A stretch of DNA of 48,779 nucleotides. Source: Rodentibacter trehalosifermentans (lineage in GTDB: Bacteria > Pseudomonadota > Gammaproteobacteria > Enterobacterales > Pasteurellaceae). Below the pieces are notes generated by a model. It saw only the letters and a program-made list of their open reading frames with translations, did not search any database and was not told the DNA's origin. Positions 1 to 18,300 of this stretch are shown one piece after another. The stretch lies in the NCBI RefSeq assembly GCF_002000545.1, contig NZ_MLHL01000040.1, positions 1-48,779 on the forward strand. Reading direction: 5' to 3'. A program made the position numbers and the translations under genes. The first letter of the stretch is position 1, and each line of letters opens with the position of its first letter.

Positions 1-29
1 TGTGCGGCGTATTATAGGGATTTTTTAAC

Positions 30-48
30 ACCACGCAAGTGGTTTTTT
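30..48 (+). terminator. Rho-independent terminator of a gene left of the window
   Basis: The stem ACCAC / GTGGT with loop GCAA is followed by six T. It would terminate a plus-strand gene lying outside the window and faces the 3' end of the helicase gene. Confidence 0.5.
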
Positions 49-110
49 CAAAAAAAAATTAAATTTTTTATCGTTTGATGAAATTTAAAACATTTCGCTC
101 TATTTTAAGC

Positions 111-2594
111 CTAATTTTTATAGTTTTCATAATCTTCACGGGAAATTACCGTACTAAACAACCCAACTCTATTATCTTTCTGATTTGCCTTCGCATACTC
201 CAAACTTGAATCTTCATAGCGTTTGAACTTATAGACCGCATCATTCATCAAACTTTCATTAAACACGTTTAACCGCACTAACAGCTCAAAATCCTTTTGG
301 GTCAATCCTGTTACTTTATGGAAAAGTCGTGGTTCTAGTTGGGTAATTACATCGCGTAGGCAGTGTTCACGATAATCAGTTAAATACATAAACACGGGAA
401 TGCGGGTGGCAAATTTAATCAATTTATCCTGAATTTGCTTTCTAAGAGATTTATATTCTTTCTCTTCCGCAGTCAATACCCTCTTCTCTGTAGGGGTGAG
501 ATCATCGCCTTTCTCTTTTTTCGTTTTTTTAACCGCTTCCGATTTATTGATGATAGTTTCAATATCTTGGTTTAAAGAACGGAAACCCTCAATATTTTTT
601 AACGCTTTCATCGCATCTTCACTGTCCATTAGGCGTTTTAAGGTATCATTATCTACATTCACTAATAAAGCACTTTCCCAACGGCGTGCCAGCAATGTTG
701 CTGTTGTGCCACTCATTGCGATGTCTAGCACGCCTTTTGCGTCAATTTGCTTCATTGAACTGCCGTCATATGCCAACACAGGCAAAAAATGGATAAACTC
801 CGCCACTTTTTGTTCCGGATTAGTATTTTCCGTATCTAAACGGCAACTATATTCAGCAATTTGGCGTAATGCACGGTTTGGGGCGAAATCAAACACATAG
901 CATTGCTGTTTCAAAATTTCCTCATTATTCGGATCGCTCTCATCATAACCTCTCAACACCCAAGGGGTTTGCACGCGAAATGCCGCTTGGAAATAGGTTT
1001 CAGGGCTGGAAGCATTGCGTAACATTAAAATCCCCGTCCACGCTGGCACAGAAACCCCTGTCGTGAGTTTCCCACAGGAAAGCGTGATAGTTTTGGCAGC
1101 AAGCGGATTTTTTGTCATCGCATTTTGCACAGGCGGTAACGCCTCTAGCCCAATGCCTGCACTCGCCCCTGCAGCAACGATAATTTGATATTGATGAAAA
1201 AACTGATTTTGCTTTTCCGCCAATAAATTCCGCATCGCATAGCAACTCGCCACATTTGGTAAAAACCAAAAGGTGTGCAATAAGTTGCCTAACAAATTCG
1301 CATCGGAAAATGGCATTGGTGGCTTTCTCGCCCCCATTTTTAATGTATCCACTGCTAATTCCGGCAATTTATTTTGAATAAAATTCAGCCAGCTTTGCAC
1401 CTCACTTTTGTAAATAAATGAGGCATTTTCACCGCTTCCCTTCGCTTCAAAAAAGCGGTTTAAATCAAATTCGTTAAACTCGCCTTTGCGGGCAATATCT
1501 TGAATGGAATCAGGCAATTGATAGGTCATCATTATCATTTGAGGCAACGCCAAATACGGATTTTTGCCCTGTTCGGTTTGCCACGTTTCTTTCGCCTTTT
1601 GCTCGTCCGAATAGGTCCAATTGAAAATTTGCTCCTCAATAAATTCACCTGAGGCTATCGCCCGAAATGGTGTGCCTGAAAGGTAGAGATAATGGTGAGT
1701 TGTGATCGGCAATAAATCCTCGTCAAAAGATTTGAGCTCATCACTTTCGGCAAAATTCTGCTCCCGTTTATCATCCTCACCTTCAAACAAATCCTTGGCA
1801 TTTTCTCGCCACGCCCCGTAGTGATATTCATCAAACACCACGCAATCCCAATTGGTACTATGTACCCACTCATTTTTTGGCTTAATACCACCCGCTTTAG
1901 TTTTACCCAAATAATCTTGGAACGAACCAAAGCAAACGAGCGGTCGATTTGGGTCAACATTTTGCAAACTGTCATCTTTGGCGAAAAATTGCCAGCCTTC
2001 AAAATCCGTATGGTTAGCTAAATCCTCCTGCCACGCATCTTGCACCGCAGGCTTAAAGGTTAAAATTAAAATTTTCTGCCAACCCATTTTCTTGGCTAGT
2101 TGATAGGTGGCAAAGGTTTTGCCAAAACGCATTTTCGCATTCCACAAAAAGCGAGGAGCCTTGCCACGGTTTGCCTCATCTTGCTTAAAGCTCTCAAAAT
2201 AACGTTGAGTTCTCTCTACCGCTGCAGCTTGTTCAGGACGCATTCCAAACGCCAGCGTGCGTTTTTTCCGATTGCAAATACCCTTTTTCACCGAAATCAA
2301 TGCTACCTGAACTGCTTGCACATCGCATTCAAACCACTCCCCGTTCACTTGGCGAACACCTGCCTTTTTCAGTGCCCGATGTACATCTTTATCGGTAAAA
2401 AGCGTGCCATTATCCCGCACCGCCAATTCTTCCAGCTCGATTTTCCACGTCTGTTCCGGGGTTTTCACTGGGTATTGCTCCCGAACCCGCTGCTCCGCTT
2501 TTTGGCGTGTGGTATATCCCACTTTCAAACAATGGGGAAAAGAACGGTCGGAATAGGCGTAGATTTTGGGAGGGTTGAGTTCATTAAGTATCAT
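111..2594 (-). CDS. SF2 helicase with N-terminal T5orf172 (GIY-YIG-like) domain, restriction-type
   Basis: Large DEAD/DEAH-type helicase, about 827 residues from ATG 2594 (a TTG at 2612 would add six; neither has a strong Shine-Dalgarno). Residues about 10-100 resemble a T5orf172/MUG113 domain, a GIY-YIG nuclease relative: IYAYSD, then KVGYTTRQKAEQRV, then GEWFE. The motor follows: Walker A-like AKMRFGKT (about residue 155), motif II DEYH (about 255), motif III SGTPF (about 306), and a motif VI-like QAAFRVQ. This nuclease-plus-translocase layout suggests the restriction subunit of the operon whose methyltransferase genes lie upstream. It is the last gene of that operon, about 47 bases after the FRG gene from ATG 2594. 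The nuclease assignment rests on motif resemblance; the helicase call is firm. Confidence 0.8.
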   Translation of the reverse strand: MILNELNPPKIYAYSDRSFPHCLKVGYTTRQKAEQRVREQYPVKTPEQTWKIELEELAVRDNGTLFTDKDVHRALKKAGVRQVNGEWFECDVQAVQVALISVKKGICNRKKRTLAFGMRPEQAAAVERTQRYFESFKQDEANRGKAPRFLWNAKMRFGKTFATYQLAKKMGWQKILILTFKPAVQDAWQEDLANHTDFEGWQFFAKDDSLQNVDPNRPLVCFGSFQDYLGKTKAGGIKPKNEWVHSTNWDCVVFDEYHYGAWRENAKDLFEGEDDKREQNFAESDELKSFDEDLLPITTHHYLYLSGTPFRAIASGEFIEEQIFNWTYSDEQKAKETWQTEQGKNPYLALPQMIMMTYQLPDSIQDIARKGEFNEFDLNRFFEAKGSGENASFIYKSEVQSWLNFIQNKLPELAVDTLKMGARKPPMPFSDANLLGNLLHTFWFLPNVASCYAMRNLLAEKQNQFFHQYQIIVAAGASAGIGLEALPPVQNAMTKNPLAAKTITLSCGKLTTGVSVPAWTGILMLRNASSPETYFQAAFRVQTPWVLRGYDESDPNNEEILKQQCYVFDFAPNRALRQIAEYSCRLDTENTNPEQKVAEFIHFLPVLAYDGSSMKQIDAKGVLDIAMSGTTATLLARRWESALLVNVDNDTLKRLMDSEDAMKALKNIEGFRSLNQDIETIINKSEAVKKTKKEKGDDLTPTEKRVLTAEEKEYKSLRKQIQDKLIKFATRIPVFMYLTDYREHCLRDVITQLEPRLFHKVTGLTQKDFELLVRLNVFNESLMNDAVYKFKRYEDSSLEYAKANQKDNRVGLFSTVISREDYENYKN

Positions 2595-2641
2595 AATTTT
2601 TTCTCTTTGCAAATTTTTGTGAAAAGGTTACCGCTTATTAA

Positions 2642-3694
2642 TTAGCTTTTATATTTATTCATAATATCTTGTGCTTGTGAGTCTAATTCTGGAAATAGTG
2701 ATTGATGACTAATACCAAAAGATTTCAATTCATTTAAAATATTTTCTTTTGAATCTTTATCAATAATCAGCCGATGATCTTTTAATACGATCCAGCTAGG
2801 CTCTACTTCCGCTTGCTTTATTTTTTGACCATCAATACCAAAAAGCAAAAATGCTCCTTGTTGCTTTGCTATTCTAGGATTATTTTGTTTTGCCTTTACA
2901 CAAACAACTCGATTAAAATCATTTGCTTCAATGATTGGATTAAAACTTGGTTTATCCTTTCTAATATCATGTAATAATCTAGCTATCTCTGGCAAATCAT
3001 TAAATATTTTCCTAAATGCCTCTCTTCTTTTCTGCATAATACTTAATTTCAATCCCTCATCAAAACTTGCTCCATATTCTTTTAGTTCTTTATTAAAAAT
3101 TTTAATAAAATCACTATCTTTCATTTCTTCATAGTTTTCTCGCTCCTCTATAATATAAGGAGTTATCTCTAAAGCTGATAGAAGATCTCCTTGTTCGATA
3201 TAAGAGGTAATATTAAAACTTTTATTTCTCAAAGAAACAGCTGATAAAATAGAAACCACATCACTATCATCATATTTAATGTATTCGTTAGGAATATCTA
3301 ATACAACAACCTCTCCATCTTCATTCTCATTAGCGACTTCTTGTTTATCGGACTTACCCACAGCAAAATATAAGCCAACTAGAGAATTACTACTTATATC
3401 TAATAATCTTGTTTTATAATCATAATGTTGTAATTTTACTAACTTTTCAAAAAGAGTTTCGTGAGGTAAAAAATAATCTGAGCAATATGTAAAAGCATCT
3501 TTAATAATTTTATCTTCATTATTTATTAGGTAGTTTGGATCACTTGCTTTATCATCTTTACGGTAAATACTCGGCACTAATTCATAGCGTTCATCAGAAT
3601 GCCCACGAAAAAAACGAGTATAGCCCTTTTTAGGTTCTCCTAGTTCTTTTAATCGTTGAGCTAAATGAGCCACATTTTCAATTTTTTCACTCAT
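2642..3694 (-). CDS. FRG-domain protein
   Basis: 350 residues. The N-terminal half has the two hallmarks of the FRG family: FFRGHSDERYELVPSIYR near residues 28-45, and LQHYDYKTRLLDIS followed by LVGLYFA near 92-116. The biochemical activity of FRG domains is not established; they are frequent in phage-defence and mobile loci. The remaining C-terminal part (about 200-350) is charged and I do not recognise it. The gene overlaps the upstream methyltransferase by 8 bases, so translation is probably coupled, and the helicase follows. The context suggests an accessory or effector subunit of the restriction-modification-like operon. It is more AT-rich than its neighbours. Confidence 0.75.
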   Translation of the reverse strand: MSEKIENVAHLAQRLKELGEPKKGYTRFFRGHSDERYELVPSIYRKDDKASDPNYLINNEDKIIKDAFTYCSDYFLPHETLFEKLVKLQHYDYKTRLLDISSNSLVGLYFAVGKSDKQEVANENEDGEVVVLDIPNEYIKYDDSDVVSILSAVSLRNKSFNITSYIEQGDLLSALEITPYIIEERENYEEMKDSDFIKIFNKELKEYGASFDEGLKLSIMQKRREAFRKIFNDLPEIARLLHDIRKDKPSFNPIIEANDFNRVVCVKAKQNNPRIAKQQGAFLLFGIDGQKIKQAEVEPSWIVLKDHRLIIDKDSKENILNELKSFGISHQSLFPELDSQAQDIMNKYKS

Positions 3695-5219
3695 CTTCCA
3701 CCTCCATCGGTCTAATCATTTTTTCAATAAAAGCAATTTCTTTTTCATCTAAGCCATATTTTTCATAAAGCTCTTGATCTGTCCAAGATTTTGAAAAATC
3801 TTGTTGTGGCACTAATTCGTAAACTTTTCTTGTACCGTGCTGTGTATTCTTTATTAGTAATATCAACAATCGAAATAATTTACTTGCCATATAACTCATC
3901 ACATTTTGACATATAGATTTACTTTCAAATCCTCCAATAACTAAATAAGTTTCAGTACAGCAAGTGCCAGGAGAACCATAAAATGAGGTATTTATAACCT
4001 GAAAAGGTTCTTTATTTCCCATACCATAAGCATAAGAAATATATATTTTATGCTCATCTATCCATTTTTTATTTATTAAAACACTTTCTTTTCTGATGTA
4101 TGCTCTCTTCTTATTTTGAATATATAAAATAATATTATCTTTAACTCCAACATAAGGATCTTTATTTCCTTTTACGCTCGTTGTTAGTCCAAAAGGTTTT
4201 CTTGAGCTCACCAACTCACTAAAACTTTTATCCTTAAAGGCTAATACTTTTCTTAAAATTGAAATACTTTCGTTATAGCGAATAAAAATATCCAAACCTT
4301 TTTCCTTTAAAGGTCTTTTCATTTGGGAAACCATTTTTTTATTTTCATAGGTCGTAACCAAACAATCGCCTTGATATTCTTTTTCCCATATAAAATAATT
4401 AACCCCTCCCTCAATAGATACACCAGGAAAACAATCAGCTGCATTAGGGAAATCGTGAATTTCTTTTAATTGTTTATCGTTTAACATTTCATCACGGAAA
4501 TCATCTAAGCCTTTCCCACCGGCGAACCAACGAGACGGCACAATCATTACTAAATATTCAGGGTCGAGCTTTTTCGCCTGTTGGATAAATTCATGATAAA
4601 TCGGGGCGGCACTGGCTTGTGCACCGCCATCGCTTAACTGATACGGTGGATTACCAATAATCACATCAAATTTCATTTTTTCTAACTCTAATTTTGTCCT
4701 TGCTTGTTGGTGAATAAAACCATAGGCGTGGTTTTCCATTGTGATGCGATCATAAACCGCTTGGCTTGCCCCACATTCCGAACATTTTCCGCCCTCCCAG
4801 CTATGCTCCACACGCTGATAAAAAATCTGCCCTTCTTCCGTTTCAAAGGCGGAACAAATGGAGTGTTCGCCGTTGGCTTTTTTGGAGCAATAAAGACTTC
4901 GGCGAGAAATTAAAGCGGTGAGTTCCGTGATGGCGATGCCGTAAAGTTGCCGGGTGAAAATATGGTTGAGCCGTTCGTCTAAATCGGGAATGTGCAATGC
5001 CAGCCCTGAAATTAACCGCTTGGCGATTTCCCGCAAAAACACGCCCGATTTGCACACTGGATCGAGAAATTTCGCATTGGGATTTTGCCAAAGACTTGCC
5101 GGCAAACGGTCGAGCATTTGGTTCACCAGTTCAGGTGGTGTGAAAACTTCATCATTGGATAAATTCGCCAAGCAGTCCAACACATCAGGGTTGTAATTGA
5201 TATTAGTGAGATTGTTCAT
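3687..5219 (-). CDS. Eco57I-type adenine-N6 DNA methyltransferase subunit with NPPY motif
   Basis: 510 residues. The catalytic motif IV, NPPYQL, is at about residues 190-195 (within FDVIIGNPPYQLSDGG), as in N6-adenine methyltransferases of the Eco57I group. A motif I-like DPVCKSGVF at about 53-61 has K where the SAM-binding loop normally has G. Cysteines at about 111, 122, 146 and 149 (ending KCSECG) may form a zinc ribbon. The part after about residue 250 probably holds target recognition. It overlaps the upstream subunit by 17 bases and the FRG gene by 8, so the products probably form one complex. What is inferred is whether this subunit binds SAM alone or shares the site with the 218-residue partner. 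Confidence 0.8.
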   Translation of the reverse strand: MNNLTNINYNPDVLDCLANLSNDEVFTPPELVNQMLDRLPASLWQNPNAKFLDPVCKSGVFLREIAKRLISGLALHIPDLDERLNHIFTRQLYGIAITELTALISRRSLYCSKKANGEHSICSAFETEEGQIFYQRVEHSWEGGKCSECGASQAVYDRITMENHAYGFIHQQARTKLELEKMKFDVIIGNPPYQLSDGGAQASAAPIYHEFIQQAKKLDPEYLVMIVPSRWFAGGKGLDDFRDEMLNDKQLKEIHDFPNAADCFPGVSIEGGVNYFIWEKEYQGDCLVTTYENKKMVSQMKRPLKEKGLDIFIRYNESISILRKVLAFKDKSFSELVSSRKPFGLTTSVKGNKDPYVGVKDNIILYIQNKKRAYIRKESVLINKKWIDEHKIYISYAYGMGNKEPFQVINTSFYGSPGTCCTETYLVIGGFESKSICQNVMSYMASKLFRLLILLIKNTQHGTRKVYELVPQQDFSKSWTDQELYEKYGLDEKEIAFIEKMIRPMEVEDE

Positions 5220-5859
5220 TGCCTAGCTCCAAAAAGTTGATAGGAGGAAATTCTTCAATGGGTTCAGGGATAAAAACGGGTTCGCCGTTTTCATCGGAAA
5301 AGAGCGGTAGATCGCTGAAATTGTTTACAAGATCACGGTAAATAAAGGCTCGGCGTTTGATTTGGTTGCCAAATGGCATTTTCCATTCGCTAAAAATAAT
5401 CTCTTTACCGCTTTCAGTTTTAAGCGTGAGAGCATCGCCGCACAAAATATTGTGCTGCAAAATAAACTCAACGCTGCGGATTGCTTCATTTTTGTAGGTT
5501 TTGGGGAAATGGCTTTGATAATGTTCGATAAATAGAGTGGATAATCGTTTGCGGCACTCCGCCACGTTGTCGGGCAGAAGCTCAATGCCGTATAAACTCC
5601 CCACGGCAATCACAGCATAGCGTTCGTACTCACTTTGAATTTTTTTGTGCTTTTGAGCGATGGCATCCAGTTTACGGCGGAGAATAGCAACTAAAAAATT
5701 GCCCGAGCCACAAGCCGGTTCAAGAAAGGTTTTATCAGGATCGGTCGTTTGATCTTTAACCAAATCCAACATTGCGTTGACTTCACGCTCGTTGGTATAG
5801 ACTTCGCCAAAATCGGCAACACGTTGTTTGGATTTAACTTGCTGAGACTTAACTTGCAT
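5203..5859 (-). CDS. Methyltransferase-fold subunit with motif I but no NPPY
   Basis: 218 residues and first gene of the operon. It shows an intact SAM-binding motif I, PACGSGNF (residues 48-55), an acidic motif II region YGIELL, and an ILCGDALTL stretch like motif III. It ends without a motif IV, giving KMPFGNQIKRRAF where NPPY would be expected. It also carries FGEVYTNEREVNAML, typical of the region before motif I in Type I/Eco57I-like methylases. The next gene has NPPY and a damaged motif I, so the two may form a split or heterodimeric methyltransferase. The start ATG at 5859 follows a purine-rich AAGGGG. Confidence 0.75.
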   Translation of the reverse strand: MQVKSQQVKSKQRVADFGEVYTNEREVNAMLDLVKDQTTDPDKTFLEPACGSGNFLVAILRRKLDAIAQKHKKIQSEYERYAVIAVGSLYGIELLPDNVAECRKRLSTLFIEHYQSHFPKTYKNEAIRSVEFILQHNILCGDALTLKTESGKEIIFSEWKMPFGNQIKRRAFIYRDLVNNFSDLPLFSDENGEPVFIPEPIEEFPPINFLELGNEQSH

Positions 5860-5910
5860 AGGAAAGCCCCTTGCAAGCTAACGAAAAGAAAGGAAAGTTT
5901 AGGCTAGTTG

Positions 5911-5931
5911 TTGTGCGTTGTGCGTTGTGCG
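5911..5931 (-). repeat. Three tandem TTGTGCG heptads at the operon transcription start
   Basis: Three perfect copies of TTGTGCG (plus-strand reading) followed by one degenerate unit. They lie about 52-72 bases upstream of the first methyltransferase start and begin where transcription from the predicted promoter would start. Heptanucleotide repeats are a known phase-variation device in Pasteurellaceae, but three copies is few. Confidence 0.75.
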
Positions 5932-5937
5932 TTAAGC

Positions 5938-5964
5938 ATTATAGAGCCCTCCTCTGATTGTCAA
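5938..5964 (-). promoter_or_regulatory. Promoter of the restriction-modification-like operon
   Basis: On the minus strand there is a perfect TTGACA (plus 5959-5964) and a perfect TATAAT (plus 5938-5943), separated by a short 15-base spacer. It is directly upstream of the heptad repeat and oriented to the four-gene operon. Confidence 0.55.
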
Positions 5965-6090
5965 ATAAAAAATTACGATATTTTAAAGCGTTATTTTTGC
6001 TTTATCAAGCAAGGGCACCGAAAGGTTTTTGATGATTTTTTACTAATCAAAGGTTAAAATTCCGACCGTTTTTTGAAAAAGGAGATCACA

Positions 6091-6918
6091 ATGAACAACA
6101 CCTTTATCGGCTTAGGCGTGGCGGGTAATTTTGCGGGGCATTTGGAGCAGGCGGGTGAGGCGGCGGATTTTTTACAGGTAAAAACCGTGGAAGCGGTGCA
6201 ACCTAAAGCGATTTTTCCCTTTTATGTGCCGAGTGAAAATTTAGAGGAATATCAATTTCTTACCACCTACCCTCTTTCCCCTTCTGAAATTCGCTTTCCC
6301 AATGATGCGGATAATTTGCAAATTGAGCCTGAAATTGCGTTGATTTGTGAGATTCAATATTCTGATGGAAAAGTGACCGCACTTTTGCCTACCTATTTTG
6401 CTGCTTATAACGATTGTTCTATTCGCCGACCTAATGCACGCAAAATTTGCGAAAAGAAAAACTGGGGTGAGAAATCTAAAGGCATTTCGGCAAATTGGCT
6501 GCCCCTAGATCATTTCAACCGAGGTGGTGTATTGGACGATTTTCATATCGCTTGTTTTCACAAACGTAATAGTGTGATGAATGAATACGGCATTGATAGC
6601 CCAGCGATGGGTTATAGCTACTTTCACCAAAAATTGTTGGATTGGATTATCGACCGAATGAATAATCAGCCTGATGAAGGGCCGATGAATCATATTGCGT
6701 CCCTGCTCAAATCAGCAAATTATCCAAAACAAGCCATCATCAGCATTGGAGCCACACGTTACACCGATTTTGGCGAACGCAATTTCTTGCAAATTGGTGA
6801 TACCAGCATTGTGGCGGTATATAACGCCAAACGTTATACTCACGCCCAAATCGCTGAAATGGCGGAAAAAGAACAATTTGCAGAGGATATTTCTGCTCTT
6901 ATCCAGCGGGTGATCTAA
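6091..6918 (+). CDS. DUF5718 family protein
   Basis: 275 residues of unknown function. The start ATG at 6091 has AAGGAG seven bases upstream; a TTG 18 bases earlier is in frame but less likely. The N-terminus GLGVAGNFAGHLEQAGEA and phrases such as KAIFPFYVP and RRPNARKICEKKNWGE match my memory of the DUF5718 family. No signal peptide or membrane segment is seen, so it is probably cytosolic. It is divergent from the restriction-modification-like operon and convergent with guaA, with a bidirectional hairpin between it and guaA, so it appears to be a single-gene unit. Confidence 0.65.
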   Translation: MNNTFIGLGVAGNFAGHLEQAGEAADFLQVKTVEAVQPKAIFPFYVPSENLEEYQFLTTYPLSPSEIRFPNDADNLQIEPEIALICEIQYSDGKVTALLPTYFAAYNDCSIRRPNARKICEKKNWGEKSKGISANWLPLDHFNRGGVLDDFHIACFHKRNSVMNEYGIDSPAMGYSYFHQKLLDWIIDRMNNQPDEGPMNHIASLLKSANYPKQAIISIGATRYTDFGERNFLQIGDTSIVAVYNAKRYTHAQIAEMAEKEQFAEDISALIQRVI

Positions 6919-11862: not shown

Positions 11863-12816
<954 letters not shown>

Positions 12817-12909
12817 AAATATTGGTGTGACAGCAAGCAGTTTTTATTTTTTGAAAATAAAATTCGATAATTCACCGTGTGAAAGTTGGTTTTACTTAAC
12901 CATAAAAAT

Positions 12910-12966
12910 CTGCATCTTAGTCAGTTGAAGTTTAGTCCAACTTTTGGGATGCAGAACGTTTTTTAG
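12910..12966. terminator. Probable terminator between convergent birA and cpdA
   Basis: Outer stem CTGCATC (12910-12916) / GATGCAG (12948-12954) encloses an inner stem AGTTG / CAACT and is followed by AACGTTTTTT. It sits between convergent genes. The nested structure is longer than a usual terminator. Confidence 0.5.
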
Positions 12967-12984
12967 TTGCACTTTGTTCTCAAT

Positions 12985-13809
12985 TTAATACCCTTCTTCC
13001 TGCATATTCGGTAAAAATTTTGCCTGTTTAATCCGTTTTACTTCCGTCACAATCAGACCATCAGGGTGCAATTCAATTTCCCGCCAACCGGGTTGCACGT
13101 CATCTAAAGCAAAATGCTGACTGTCCGCTTTAAATTGAATACAGGTTGAAGGGGTTGCCATCACTTGGTATCCCTGCCATTGACTATCCACTTGCTGATG
13201 AATATGACCGTATAAAATAGCTTTTACATTTTTAAACGGCGCAAGCACATCAAGTAATTCATGGGAATTTCGCAAATTATGCTGATCAAGCCAAGCAGAA
13301 TTTGTCGGTAATACATGATGGTGAAACACAATTAAAGTGTGGCGTTGCGGATAGGCTTCTAATGTCGTTTTTAATAAATCAAGTTGATAGCGACTTAATT
13401 CGCCATGAGGTACGCCGTAAACCTGACTATCCAACAATAAAATTTGCCAGTGATCGCCCAACAAAATATGTTTTGCTTTTTCCATTGGCGGCTGATTTAA
13501 GTTTTCCACCATTTTAGGTTGAAAATCATGATTCCCCGGAATCCAAAATACCGGCAAAGCAAAAGGTTTTATCATCTCGACAAAACGCTGATACCCCTCA
13601 TCGCTGCTATCCTGCACCAAATCGCCGGTTGCCAGTATCACATCAAATTCGCTATTTTCCTGTTTAATTTCCGTTAAAACCTGCGAAAAGCTTGATTGCG
13701 TGTTCACCCCCAACAGCTCGCTTTTTTCATCCTTAAATAAGTGGGGATCGGTAATTTGTAATAATTTTATAATCGGTTTTTCTGCCCGATAAACAAACGT
13801 ATTTTTCAT
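12985..13809 (-). CDS. cpdA: 3',5'-cyclic-AMP phosphodiesterase CpdA
   Basis: 274 residues, family length. It hydrolyses cAMP to AMP in the cytosol and so tunes CRP-dependent genes. Class III metallophosphoesterase motifs run in order: ITDPHL, GDLVQD, GNHD, FHHHVLP and GHIHQQ, which coordinate the two metals. In many gammaproteobacteria it follows nudF, as here (9 bases). The N-terminus MKNTFVYRAEKPIIKLLQIT is in the usual place. Confidence 0.93.
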   Translation of the reverse strand: MKNTFVYRAEKPIIKLLQITDPHLFKDEKSELLGVNTQSSFSQVLTEIKQENSEFDVILATGDLVQDSSDEGYQRFVEMIKPFALPVFWIPGNHDFQPKMVENLNQPPMEKAKHILLGDHWQILLLDSQVYGVPHGELSRYQLDLLKTTLEAYPQRHTLIVFHHHVLPTNSAWLDQHNLRNSHELLDVLAPFKNVKAILYGHIHQQVDSQWQGYQVMATPSTCIQFKADSQHFALDDVQPGWREIELHPDGLIVTEVKRIKQAKFLPNMQEEGY

Positions 13810-13818
13810 AGATGATTC

Positions 13819-14451
13819 CTAACTTCGTTGCCAACGTTGTTGCAACTGAGCATAATTCAATTGAAGCCATTGCAATCCCATCACTGCAATGCCATTATCA
13901 ATTTTCCCTTCGCACATCCATTGATACGCCTGTTCACGTTTCACAACGTGCACTCGAATGTCTTCATTTTCGCAAGCCAAACCGTGAATCCCTTTCGCCT
14001 TTGAGCTATCCACTTCCCCTACAAATAAATGAATCCGTTCAACTACGCCACCGGGGCTATCCCACACACTTAAACAATGCGTGAGATTCTTCACACTCAC
14101 ACCGGCTTCTTCTTCGCTTTCACGCAATGCCACCTCTTCCGGCTGTTCTCCTTTTTCTACCATCCCTGCAATTAACTCTAACAACCAAGGGGAACGATTC
14201 GGCTCGGGATGATAGGCAGCCCCAATACGAACCTGCTCCACCAAAACCACAGAATCTTTTTTCGGATCATAAGCGATTACTGCGGCAGCCGCCCCTTTGA
14301 TAAGCAATTCACGAGTGACCACGCCACTTTCACCATCGGCAAAAAGTTTGTGTTTAAATTGAATTTTCTTGAGCGTGAAAAACCCGTCATACACGACTTC
14401 CTCATTAAGAATTTCAATATCACGCTGATTAAACTGTTGAATTTCAGACAT
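13819..14451 (-). CDS. nudF: ADP-ribose pyrophosphatase NudF
   Basis: 210 residues from ATG 14451 (MSEIQQFNQRD), chosen because GGAG lies six bases upstream; the frame extends four codons further. It hydrolyses ADP-ribose to AMP and ribose-5-phosphate. The Nudix box is complete: GMVEKGEQPEEVALRESEEE followed by AG. The gene is directly upstream of cpdA with a 9-base gap, so they form a transcription unit. Confidence 0.93.
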   Translation of the reverse strand: MSEIQQFNQRDIEILNEEVVYDGFFTLKKIQFKHKLFADGESGVVTRELLIKGAAAAVIAYDPKKDSVVLVEQVRIGAAYHPEPNRSPWLLELIAGMVEKGEQPEEVALRESEEEAGVSVKNLTHCLSVWDSPGGVVERIHLFVGEVDSSKAKGIHGLACENEDIRVHVVKREQAYQWMCEGKIDNGIAVMGLQWLQLNYAQLQQRWQRS

Positions 14452-14559
14452 CTTTTTCTCCAAATACTGCGGTGAAAATCATACGCTCAAAAAACGATAA
14501 AACAAATAAAAGGTTCATACTTTTTGTTGAAACTTTGACATGGCTCACAAAAAATAAAA

Positions 14560-14584
14560 CCTGTGATTGATTTATAATCACAGG
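14560..14584 (-). terminator. Terminator of the metallophosphoesterase gene
   Basis: A perfect 9-bp stem, CCTGTGATT / AATCACAGG, with a 7-base loop. Read on the minus strand it is followed by TTTTATTTTTT, placed 22 bases after the stop of the gene at 14607. Confidence 0.75.
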
Positions 14585-14606
14585 CTTTCTCATTACTCAT
14601 TACTTA

Positions 14607-15347
14607 CTACAGTTCAATTAATAGCTCCGAAATAAAACCGTTTTTTCCGTGTTCATTTGGATAGCCCAATGGATTAATCACTACACGACATCCTTGGAAA
14701 ACAGTATCTACCGCAGAGTGGGTATGCCCAGAAAACCAAAAGTTAAAACCGTCCAAACTAATATCATTGATAAAATATGGATTTAATGGAGAATTATCAA
14801 ATTGAGGGTCTTGGCAAATTAAAGAAGGCGGAAAATGTGTAAGAACAACAGTTTTATCTTTTCCTCGAAACCGATTAATCCAATTTAATTGGTGATTAAA
14901 AAAGCGAACATAATCATTAGCTGTAATTCGCCTTTCAGATTTTTCATTTGCTTGATAATCAAAAATATACCCGAAATCGGCAATACATCTTTCAGATATC
15001 AATTTAAACTTTTCGTGTTCTCGAAAAGCTACCGTATTTTGCCTAAAATTAGTAAATAATGTCCCCCCAACAAAACGCCATCCATCAAACTCAAAGACTT
15101 GATGCTCAAATAAACAATTCAATTTTAAATCCAGAATCTTGCGATAAACTTCCGTCATATTTTCATGATAAAAATCATGATTACCCAGCACAAAAACATA
15201 AGGCTTGCCAAATTTTTTACAATTTTCATGAAATTCAATCGCACCGCTCAATCCATTCCCAAAATCACCAAGATGGACGATTAAATCTGCATTTTGATCG
15301 ACAAAATACGGTGTTCCATGTGTATCCGAAAGTAGCTGTAATTTCAT
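14607..15347 (-). CDS. Metallophosphoesterase, substrate unknown
   Basis: 246 residues. Calcineurin-type metal motifs are clear: LLSDTHG at residues 5-11, HLGDFGNG, LGNHDFY, THFPPS and SGHTHS. No signal peptide or membrane segment, so cytosolic. It is smaller than and distinct from CpdA, and the substrate cannot be inferred. It begins 9 bases after the stop of hrpA, so it is likely the last gene of the DUF441-DUF423-hrpA unit, ended by the hairpin at 14560-14584. Confidence 0.85.
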   Translation of the reverse strand: MKLQLLSDTHGTPYFVDQNADLIVHLGDFGNGLSGAIEFHENCKKFGKPYVFVLGNHDFYHENMTEVYRKILDLKLNCLFEHQVFEFDGWRFVGGTLFTNFRQNTVAFREHEKFKLISERCIADFGYIFDYQANEKSERRITANDYVRFFNHQLNWINRFRGKDKTVVLTHFPPSLICQDPQFDNSPLNPYFINDISLDGFNFWFSGHTHSAVDTVFQGCRVVINPLGYPNEHGKNGFISELLIEL

Positions 15348-15356
15348 TTTTTATCC

Positions 15357-18300
15357 CTAGTACTCTGAAATCAAATTCAAAATCCGTTTATCCGACACCT
15401 GATATTTCGTGCCTAATTGCTGGGCGAACAAGCTCACCCGTAATTCTTCAATCATATAGCGAATTTCAGCCACCTCATCAGAAATCGGCTTAGATTTGGG
15501 TAATTTTGCTAAAAGTTGTTGATAGGCCTGTTGGACTTGATCTACGCGTAACATTGCCGCACGATCACGGTTCACATCTTGAGCCAGCTTGTCGATACGC
15601 TTATCAATGGCTTGTAAATAACGCAATAAATCCGGCAATCGAGAGTAGCCACTTTTTTGCACAAAGCCCTGATACACCAACCCACTCAGTTGCGATTTAA
15701 TATCCGAAAGGGCAAATGCCATCGTAAAATCCATTTTACCTTTTAAACGTTGGTTTAAGGCGTGGTTAAAGGTTAAAATTTGTTCCACTTTTTGGGCGAT
15801 ATCGACCGTAACTTCATTGAGATTTTCACGCACAAAATCCCGTAATTTTTCAAAACCCTCTTCATTCCATACAAAACCGCCAAAATCCGTAATCAGTTTA
15901 TCTACCGCACAAGCAATGCAATCGTCAATTAAATCCAACACCCGCCCAAATGGTGTGAAATATAACCCCAGTTTCGCTTTATTCGGCAATTTTTCATGAA
16001 GATACTTAATAGGGGATGGCACATTCAGTAACAATAAGCGGCGTAATCCCTGCTGCATTGCCACCTTTTGCTCAAATTCCGTTTCAAAGAGTTTGATCCC
16101 GACGGCATCTTTTTCATCCACAATTGCCGGAAAGGCTTTCACACTAAACCCTTGCTTTTTCTGCTCATAAAATTGCGGTAAATCGGCGAAATTCCAAACA
16201 TGTACACCGGTTTGTTCAATGCCGTCATCCGCTACCGCAGAAATGCTCTCTTGTACACGCTCTTTCAACGCAAACTTCAGGGCATCCAAATCCATCGATT
16301 CGGCAATTTTCTTGCCTTTTTCATCCACCACTCGAAACGTCATTTTTAGATGGCTTGGAATTTGTGCCCAGTTCCAATGTTCCGCCTCCACCGTCACCCC
16401 CGTCATACGGCGTAATTCGTAGATGAGGGTGTCCAATAATGGTTTTTCTAAAGGGATGGCACGGCCTAAAAAGGCTTGAGCATAATTCGGTGCCGGAACA
16501 AAATTACGTCGATACGCCTTCGGTAACGATTTAATCAATGCAATGACTAATTCCTCACGCAAACCCGGAATTTGCCAATCAAAGCCTGTCATTTCTACCT
16601 GATTAAGCAATGGCAAAGGAATATGCACCGTCACACCGTCCGCCTCTGTGCCCGGTTCAAATTGATAGGTGAGTTTGAGTTTAAGGTTACCCTGATACCA
16701 AAAGTTGGGAAAATCCAGTTTACTGACTTGTTCTGCCTTATCATTAATCAGGAAAGCCCGCTCAAAATTCAGTAATTCCGAATGCTGTTTTGAGGCTTTC
16801 TTCCACCAAGTATCAAAATGTTTTTGTGAAACGACCTCTGTACCGATACGTTGATCGTAAAATTCAAACAGGGTTCGCTCATCAACCAAAATATCCCGAC
16901 GACGGCTTTTGTGCTCCAGCTCTTCTATTTCATTAATCAACTTTTGATTTTGTTTGAAGAAGGGGTGTTTGGTATGCCAATTCCCCTCAACCAAAGCCGA
17001 TTGAATAAAAATCTCTCGGCTCACAACCGGGTCAATTGCTCCATAATTGACCACTCTTGCCTGCACAATCGGCACACCATATAAACTTACTTTTTCATCG
17101 GCTATCACCGCACCACGGGATTTTGACCAACGAGGTTCTGCATAAGATTTTTTCACCAAATGCTCAGCAAGGGGTTCTATCCATTCCGGTTCAATCTCTG
17201 CCACCATTCGCCCCCAAAGTTTTGAGGTTTCCACCAATTCTGCCGCCATGATCCATTTCGGTTGTTTTTTGAAAAGTGCGGAATTAGGGAAAATCGAAAA
17301 ATGGGCATTACGCGCACCAAGATATTGTTGTTTTTCCACTTCTTTTAACCCGATATGGGATAGTAAACCACTTAAAAGTGCGCTATGAATTTGCGGATAC
17401 TCTGCTTTTTCGGAATTAATCGGCAACCCCATTTCACGCACAGAAAGGCGAATCTGATGATAAATATCTTGCCATTCTCGAAGGCGTAAATAATTTAAAA
17501 AATCTTTTTGACACTGGCGGCGAAATTGATTTTTGCTCAAGATTTTTTGTTGTTCTTGGAGATAATGCCAAAGATTTAAGAAGGCCAAGAAATCGGATTT
17601 TTTATCGGCAAAACGGCGATGTTTTTCATCTGCAGCCTGCTGTTTTTCCGTTGGACGCTCACGAGGGTCTTGAATAGATAGGGCAGAAACGATCACCATC
17701 ACTTCATAAACACAGCCCAAATTGACCGCACTTAGCAACATTTTTGCCAATCGGGGATCAACGGGAAGTTGGGCCAGTTGACGACCAAGGTTTGTAAGAA
17801 CACGTTTTTCTTTTGATGTTGAGGAACGCTCTCCCTCCTCAGCGCTACGGACAGTATCCCTCGTAAATGGAGGGGGCGATTTTCTAATCCTCTTCCACGC
17901 CAACGCCCCCAACTCTTCCAACAATTTCACACCATCTTGGATATGTCGTCTATCCGGGGCATCAACAAAGGGAAAGGCCTCAATATCATCTAAGCCTAAT
18001 GCCATCATTTGTAAAATCACGGAAGCTAAATTGGTGCGTAAAATTTCCGGATCGGTAAATGCCGGGCGGGAATTGAAATCTTCTTCAGAATAAAGACGAA
18101 TACAGATCCCTTCGCTCACCCGACCACAACGGCCTTTGCGCTGATTGGCAGACGCCTGTGAAATCGGCTCAATCGGTAAGCGTTGTACTTTGGTTCGATA
18201 ACTATAGCGGGAAATTCGAGCCGTACCCGGGTCAATCACATATTTAATGCCCGGTACGGTAAGCGAGGTTTCCGCCACATTCGTCGCTAAAACAATACGA

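Follow-up and report, generated by a model that had tools for sequence, protein, structure and literature searches.

A conserved M1-M2-R operon resembling an ATP-dependent restriction-modification system, with an exchangeable FRG gene, in Rodentibacter trehalosifermentans

Type ISP restriction enzymes such as LlaBIII and LlaGI unite a superfamily 2 (SF2) motor, an adenine methyltransferase with its own recognition domain and an Mrr-type nuclease in one chain, and classical type IIG enzymes work without a helicase-type motor. Restriction-modification (R-M) operons may also house other defence genes, and a 2024 preprint by Payne et al. reportedly deals with such embedded defences. Among the genes embedded in type I operons, PrrC is a guard system of restriction according to PMC3710099 and PMC12707154, DarTG2 lies between hsdS and hsdR (PMC12255303), and TgvAB protects without HsdR (PMC11411939). 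Here, a four-gene operon of Rodentibacter trehalosifermentans was analyzed. It lies near the start of a 48,779-nucleotide stretch (contig NZ_MLHL01000040.1, hereafter the window) and encodes a methyltransferase-like protein (M1), an Eco57I-type methyltransferase (M2), an FRG-domain protein and a nuclease-helicase (R; Table 1).

The operon is read, with a probability of roughly 0.6, as a mobile ATP-dependent R-M system composed of three core proteins (M1-M2-R) and an exchangeable, embedded FRG effector. Since embedding has been published for other systems, the arrangement is of a known kind; new, as far as the literature was searched, are the type of core and FRG as its guest. No description of the M1-M2-R core was found in the literature within reach, subscription papers and REBASE lying beyond it.

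The operon resembles type ISP enzymes in that the M2 fold matched LlaBIII, but it consists of three chains, with a GIY-YIG nuclease and the additional methyltransferase-like M1. The PADLOC profile PDLC03626 ("Type IIG REase_MTase", 1359 aa) matched both R (E = 3.6e-36, profile positions 167-800) and M2 (E = 7e-54, profile positions 862-1346). This profile describes one fused chain, whereas R and M2 are separate here and accompanied by M1, and R has the helicase-type motor that classical type IIG enzymes lack. No HsdS match was obtained among the four proteins with Pfam or PADLOC, and the M2 fold is that of methyltransferases with their own recognition domain; type I HsdR carries a PD-(D/E)XK nuclease, in contrast to the T5orf172 domain of R. 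The locus shares with the type I operons housing PrrC, DarTG2 or TgvAB a foreign defence gene among R-M genes, FRG lying inside the operon as an embedded guard would. It differs from them in the absence of HsdS, in the nuclease and in the guest. FRG itself was also found lodged between hsdS and hsdR in Pasteurellaceae.

A match to R was detected in 25 of 140 Pasteurellaceae genomes, the window's own included, and in 20 of the other 24 the genes M1, M2 and R followed in this order on one strand. The remaining four comprised a locus with R in two distant parts (L050), one with a piece of R only (L051) and two of a divergent form (L053, L054). R of L050 was split at about residue 247, the first part lying with M1-M2 and the last part on the opposite strand at a distance of about 10 kb, in an inversion-like arrangement. 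In L044 (7394-8356, oriented), a 320-aa insertion sequence (IS)-like transposase open reading frame (ORF), presumably of IS110 type, interrupted M2 near its end.

A wide scan across the species collection yielded at least 586 matching stretches. Among the best 80 of them, M1-M2-R was ordered on one strand in 64 of the 65 checkable loci. The other 15 ended at a contig edge before M2 or M1 was complete; in L070, M2 and most of M1 were missing despite 8 kb of upstream sequence. The R proteins of these 80 loci were 61-68% identical to that of the window and came mostly from metagenome-assembled genomes (MAGs). Going by record titles, they represent Bacteroidota, Chloroflexota, Planctomycetota, Cyanobacteria, Patescibacteria, Spirochaetota, Clostridia, Proteobacteria and others; a single short contig assigned to an archaeal MAG may be contamination. 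A 398-genome sample of the phylum gave two matches, both from the window's genus. As judged from gene order, M1-M2-R is a three-gene core that stays together in many kinds of bacteria. Of the four proteins whose shared order the sequence-only reading had proposed to follow across genomes, these three keep together and FRG does not.

The T5orf172 domain (PF10544) of R scored above the Pfam cut-off and covered residues 17-103 (2304-2564). This domain is a member of the GIY-YIG superfamily and is so described for the phage nuclease Gp88 in PMC8263062. In alignment A1, which comprised 14 of the 25 Pasteurellaceae R genes (the others were excluded as broken or for brevity), residues Y18, Y20, K30, G32, T34, R42, H78, E92 and W93 were invariant. 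R thus shows both the domain and the conserved residues of a GIY-YIG/T5orf172 nuclease, and no PD-(D/E)XK match was found on it by Pfam. The ResIII match reached 21 bits, just under the Pfam cut-off of 22.5, and the helicase motifs NAKMRFGKT, DEYH and QAAFRVQ were present and largely conserved across the 14 aligned relatives. Domains and gene order agree with the earlier proposal of an R-M-like system with its nuclease on the helicase, which would cut DNA. Near full-length relatives of R, at 59% and 55% identity, were also observed in two phage-collection records from human faecal samples (PV036449.1 and MT835565.1).

M1 and M2 were assigned by Pfam to MmeI_Mtase (PF20473) and Eco57I (PF07669), respectively, both above the cut-off. 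Motif counts were restricted to M1 proteins of 180-330 aa (64 of 68 retained) and M2 proteins of 450-650 aa (67 of 75), the window included; alignments A2 and A3 comprised every second locus of length-filtered lists, with L134 also omitted from A3. M1 carries motif I as EPACGSGNF (5695-5721) and FSEW (5383-5394), and no NPPY. Across its family, EPACGxGxF was present in 64/64 sequences and [NDS]PP[YFW] in 0/64, and the E-W pair at residues 158-159 was conserved. In M2, motif I reads DPVCKSG (5043-5063) and NPPY is present (4641-4652); its family kept NPPY in 67/67 sequences and D53, P54, K57 and G59 invariantly, the G-x-G form being found in none of the 67. The first glycine that motif I usually has is likewise absent from M.TaqI.

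The two proteins were aligned by hhalign with a probability of 97.7 across 84 columns, a profile similarity by which M1 and M2 are sister proteins. They were separate genes in 64 of the 65 checkable loci; a frameshift or assembly error behind the split was therefore ruled out. The "split methyltransferase" of the sequence-only reading was right in substance, the separation being the arrangement of the whole family.

The structure model of M2 (predicted local distance difference test, pLDDT, 86) matched the folds of CamA, BrxX, M.BseCI and the type ISP enzyme LlaBIII in the PDB (E = 2e-18 to 6e-12, 12-14% identity) and also resembled MmeI. By sequence, no solved relatives of M2 or R were found at E 0.01. 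Among relatives, identity was 38-71% in the C-terminal half of M2 and 61-85% in the catalytic half, as expected for a recognition domain. M2 thus combines the fold, the NPPY motif and the target recognition domain of an N6-adenine DNA methyltransferase, with a deviating motif I (K57), and on sequence and model it probably provides both catalysis and specificity. For M1, conservation is what points to a role.

In the divergent loci L053 and L054, the parts were distributed differently. As in the operon here, an M1-like protein (profile E = 4e-8 and 2e-7) preceded R, and a GIY-YIG helicase, a KSG half and an NPPY half were present, the KSG motif being retained. However, the KSG half of M2 was fused to R, and the NPPY and recognition half formed a separate protein. 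The plasmid matches H13-H15, annotated as Eco57I methylase proteins, may be of the L053/L054-like or of the fused kind.

The space between M2 and R was found to be variable. M2 was visible in 74 wide-scan loci, with a tight M2-R gap in 47 and a gap of more than 300 bp in 27; between M1 and M2, such a gap was seen in 8 of 64 loci. Among the 27 wide slots, 16 held a gene of a Pfam family, mostly of defence or toxin type, 6 held an ORF of 120-240 aa with no Pfam match, and 5 held no convincing gene (L075, L077, L085, L102 and L127, the gap of L077 being partly the rest of M2). The tallies, which include M1-M2 gaps and loci with M2 cut off and were assigned by Pfam on representatives together with blastp, gave YhcG/DUF1016 in 9 loci, Bro-N in 7, RhuM in 4, PDDEXK_3 in 3, and AAA_15/21 with DUF4276 and Y1 transposase in 2 each. 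Fic, AlbA_2, HEPN_Apea, an SMC-like AAA protein, ORF6N, DUF433 and 23S-IVP occurred in one locus each, and seven slot ORFs of this set had no Pfam match. Pfam searches of 31 further slot ORFs agreed, adding one PemK-like toxin and antitoxin-type helix-turn-helix domains. In L056 and L057, the AAA_15/21 ATPase and DUF4276 pair lay ahead of R, reminiscent of PARIS-type pairs.

FRG occupied the M2-R slot in 6 of the 25 Pasteurellaceae genomes with R (the window, L031, L032, L033, L049 and L052) and was found nowhere else in the loci of the 24 relatives; the profile used was built from all 31 Pasteurellaceae FRGs and therefore necessarily recovers the five slot FRGs. In the 80 wide-scan loci no FRG was detected by this profile, and none by Pfam among the slot ORFs scanned (23 + 31). 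The slot FRGs fell into three lineages, with identities of 23-31% between and 56-71% within them. The R proteins beside them were 76-86% identical among five loci and 64-68% identical to that of L052, those of L049 and L052 being incomplete. The G+C content of the six FRG genes was 27-30% (29.3% in the window), compared to 34.5-48% for the core genes. This pattern reads as repeated replacement at one slot; by these comparisons, FRG is an optional guest, and the slot can hold different defence-like genes.

The FRG domain (PF08867) of the window protein scored 59.3 bits against a gathering score of 25, and the protein matched PADLOC PDC-S15 (E = 1.4e-89). That label presumably denotes a single-gene candidate, whereas FRG here lies inside an R-M-like operon. 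The 140 Pasteurellaceae genomes contained 31 FRG matches above the cut-off in 27 genomes, one match below it (G115) being dropped. Six of the 31 were in the M2-R slot, 13 in type I operons, 11 without an Hsd gene nearby and one at a contig end. All but one of the type I FRGs (12 of 13) had HsdS on one side and HsdR on the other, in some cases with additional ORFs in between, the remaining one (L189) following HsdS at a contig end; the Hsd proteins of L174 were only about 28% identical to the Hsd queries.

Several solitary FRGs were located within housekeeping operons or next to them, and the same junctions recurred, namely hisF-hisIE (L173, L177, L192), glyQ-glyS (L193, L194), glyS (L182) and carA-carB (L184). 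In L184 another ORF was also present between carA and carB. A YhcG/DUF1016-like gene lay near the FRGs of the gly junctions; the YhcG label and the placement of L177 and L194 are by resemblance only.

The strongest alternative, although considered unlikely, is that FRG is a self-sufficient abortive-infection gene in a tolerated spot, which would borrow the promoter and neither sense nor guard the R-M system. The FRGs of the window and L032 group with the solitary ones; after L032, the window FRG was closest to these, with 38-47% identity for nine and 28-30% for two. The junctions in housekeeping operons and the protection by TgvAB described above are in line with such autonomy. In contrast, the 6 of 31 FRGs in this slot and the 13 in type I operons are unlike random placement, as judged without a formal test. 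The FRGs of L031 and L049 were nearest to the type I FRG of L189; for L033 and L052, the nearest were type I FRGs including L178 and L172.

Much less credible is one complex of four obligatory subunits, as the sequence-only reading had proposed, in which FRG would add a further activity to restriction. FRG and M2 do overlap by 8 bases within one gene run; however, every one of the 64 ordered wide-scan loci and 15 of the 20 Pasteurellaceae relatives with an ordered core had no FRG, and the slot was filled by unrelated FRG lineages, by other genes or by nothing. FRG as an obligatory fourth subunit was rejected on account of the core order without it and the exchange of its lineages.

The mechanism proposed for a three-protein core with an exchangeable effector is inferred throughout, from all biochemical activities and the complex to co-transcription and whatever triggers FRG. 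In it, M2 would recognize its site through the C-terminal half and methylate adenine. M1, with the S-adenosylmethionine (SAM)-binding motif kept and the catalytic NPPY missing, would be its regular partner. On unmodified DNA, R would join the methyltransferase, its SF2 motor would work on the DNA and its N-terminal GIY-YIG (T5orf172) domain would cut. FRG would be an effector gene in a recombination-prone slot between the modification and restriction genes, expressed together with them, and by analogy it may perhaps act as a guard of the core. Its most likely role would be a second line, through toxicity of ADP-ribosyl/NAD type once restriction is overcome, like PrrC. Least probable of all is a core that acts otherwise than by restricting unmethylated DNA, either modification-dependent or as a BREX-like block without cleavage, since the closeness of the M2 fold to BrxX/PglX is countered by the nuclease-type domain that R carries together with its motor, whose residues do not vary across 14 sequences, and by the absence of the BREX components pglZ and brxC from the matches listed for the five scanned proteins (for M1, 25 of 27 matches).

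Certain observations weigh against the proposed R-M system with its embedded effector. At least one core gene was broken in at least 5 of the 20 ordered Pasteurellaceae relatives (L036, L044, L048, L049 and L052). The wide-scan loci, taken as best matches, are a biased sample, and one of them (L074) is a Pasteurellaceae contig, the same as L041. A lysine (K57) replaces a motif-I glycine of M2 in 67/67 sequences and might keep M2 from binding SAM, which leaves the SAM-binding subunit uncertain, and the M1-like protein of the rearranged relative L054 lacks EPACGxG, which counts against a simple rule of M1 supplying the SAM site. Since 11 of the 31 FRGs are solitary, FRG does not need a restriction system. 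The FRG model (pLDDT 86) gave no match in the PDB at E <= 0.001, and no ADP-ribosyltransferase (ART) fold; the ART reading of FRG therefore draws on PMC9503650, which places FRG in the ART superfamily as a proposed effector or NADase.

Mobility of the operon was indicated by an empty site in four relatives of the genus (L198, L199, L204 and L207), in which a match to window positions 1-63 or more was followed, only 32-113 bases later, by a match starting at 6027, 6077 or 6106. The operon adjoins the same DUF5718 gene in genome G120 and in G099, the latter from another genus; together with the empty sites, this shows that the operon comes and goes at this site. The sequence-only reading had taken missing uptake signals as a sign of recent gain. 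The sequence AAGTGCGGT, the Haemophilus-type uptake signal, occurred 1647 times in the genome compared to 50 for the reversed control, and none was present in the window before position 6376, where 3.7 would be expected for that length (P ~ 0.02). However, a second 5.8-kb stretch without the signal was found at 11936-17725, and the gap is at most weak evidence of gain. The empty site is the better evidence for gain or loss.

Table 1. Features of the operon and its site in window coordinates.
Feature	Position	Strand	Basis
Promoter-like site TTGACA-15-TATAAT	5938..5964	-	perfect hexamers; predicted
M1, methyltransferase-like subunit, 218 aa	5203..5859	-	ORF, Pfam MmeI_Mtase, motif I
M2, Eco57I-type N6-adenine methyltransferase with C-terminal recognition half, 510 aa (putative)	3687..5219	-	Pfam, motifs, model
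FRG-domain protein, 350 aa, embedded cargo between M2 and R	2642..3694	-	Pfam, PADLOC
R, T5orf172/GIY-YIG nuclease fused to SF2 helicase, 833 aa from TTG (putative)	111..2612	-	Pfam, motifs
Stretch missing from empty site of relatives, approximate	85..6026		bounds from L198; also L199, L204, L207

The ORF coordinates confirmed four genes on the minus strand, which together span 111-5859; the first three overlap, by 17 bases and then by 8, as first described, and an alternative ATG start of R lies at 2594. A single promoter, also part of that description, is plausible for the operon. The TTGACA and TATAAT hexamers are perfect, but their spacer of 15 bases is shorter than the usual 17, and a promoter scan requiring 16-18 bases did not list this site and found 19 sites in total compared to 18.7 in shuffled sequences. 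Between the promoter-like site and M1, CGCACAA is repeated three times in tandem on the minus strand (5911-5931). On the other side of the operon, a repeat at window positions 1-84 recurs in contigs C53 (86% identical) and C30 (94%) of the same genome, at the contig ends or close to them; the window's contig therefore stops just beyond R, at a repeated element. Neither the contig-end repeats L170 and L171 nor four DUF5718 loci gave an Rfam match.

A wider claim is held as distinctly doubtful, namely that the operon represents an undescribed, widespread class of ATP-dependent R-M systems. Adenine would be methylated by two complementary sisters, M1 with the SAM motif but no NPPY and M2 with NPPY but a changed SAM motif (K57), a GIY-YIG translocating nuclease would restrict, and a cassette-like slot between M and R would take up in turn FRG or one of about ten further effector types, with the core guarding each of them. 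The finding points to a restriction system across many bacterial phyla, with a paired methyltransferase and methyltransferase-like subunit. Through embedding, the slot directly provides a set of candidate anti-phage effectors, and with several effector types on one core it makes the guard idea directly testable.

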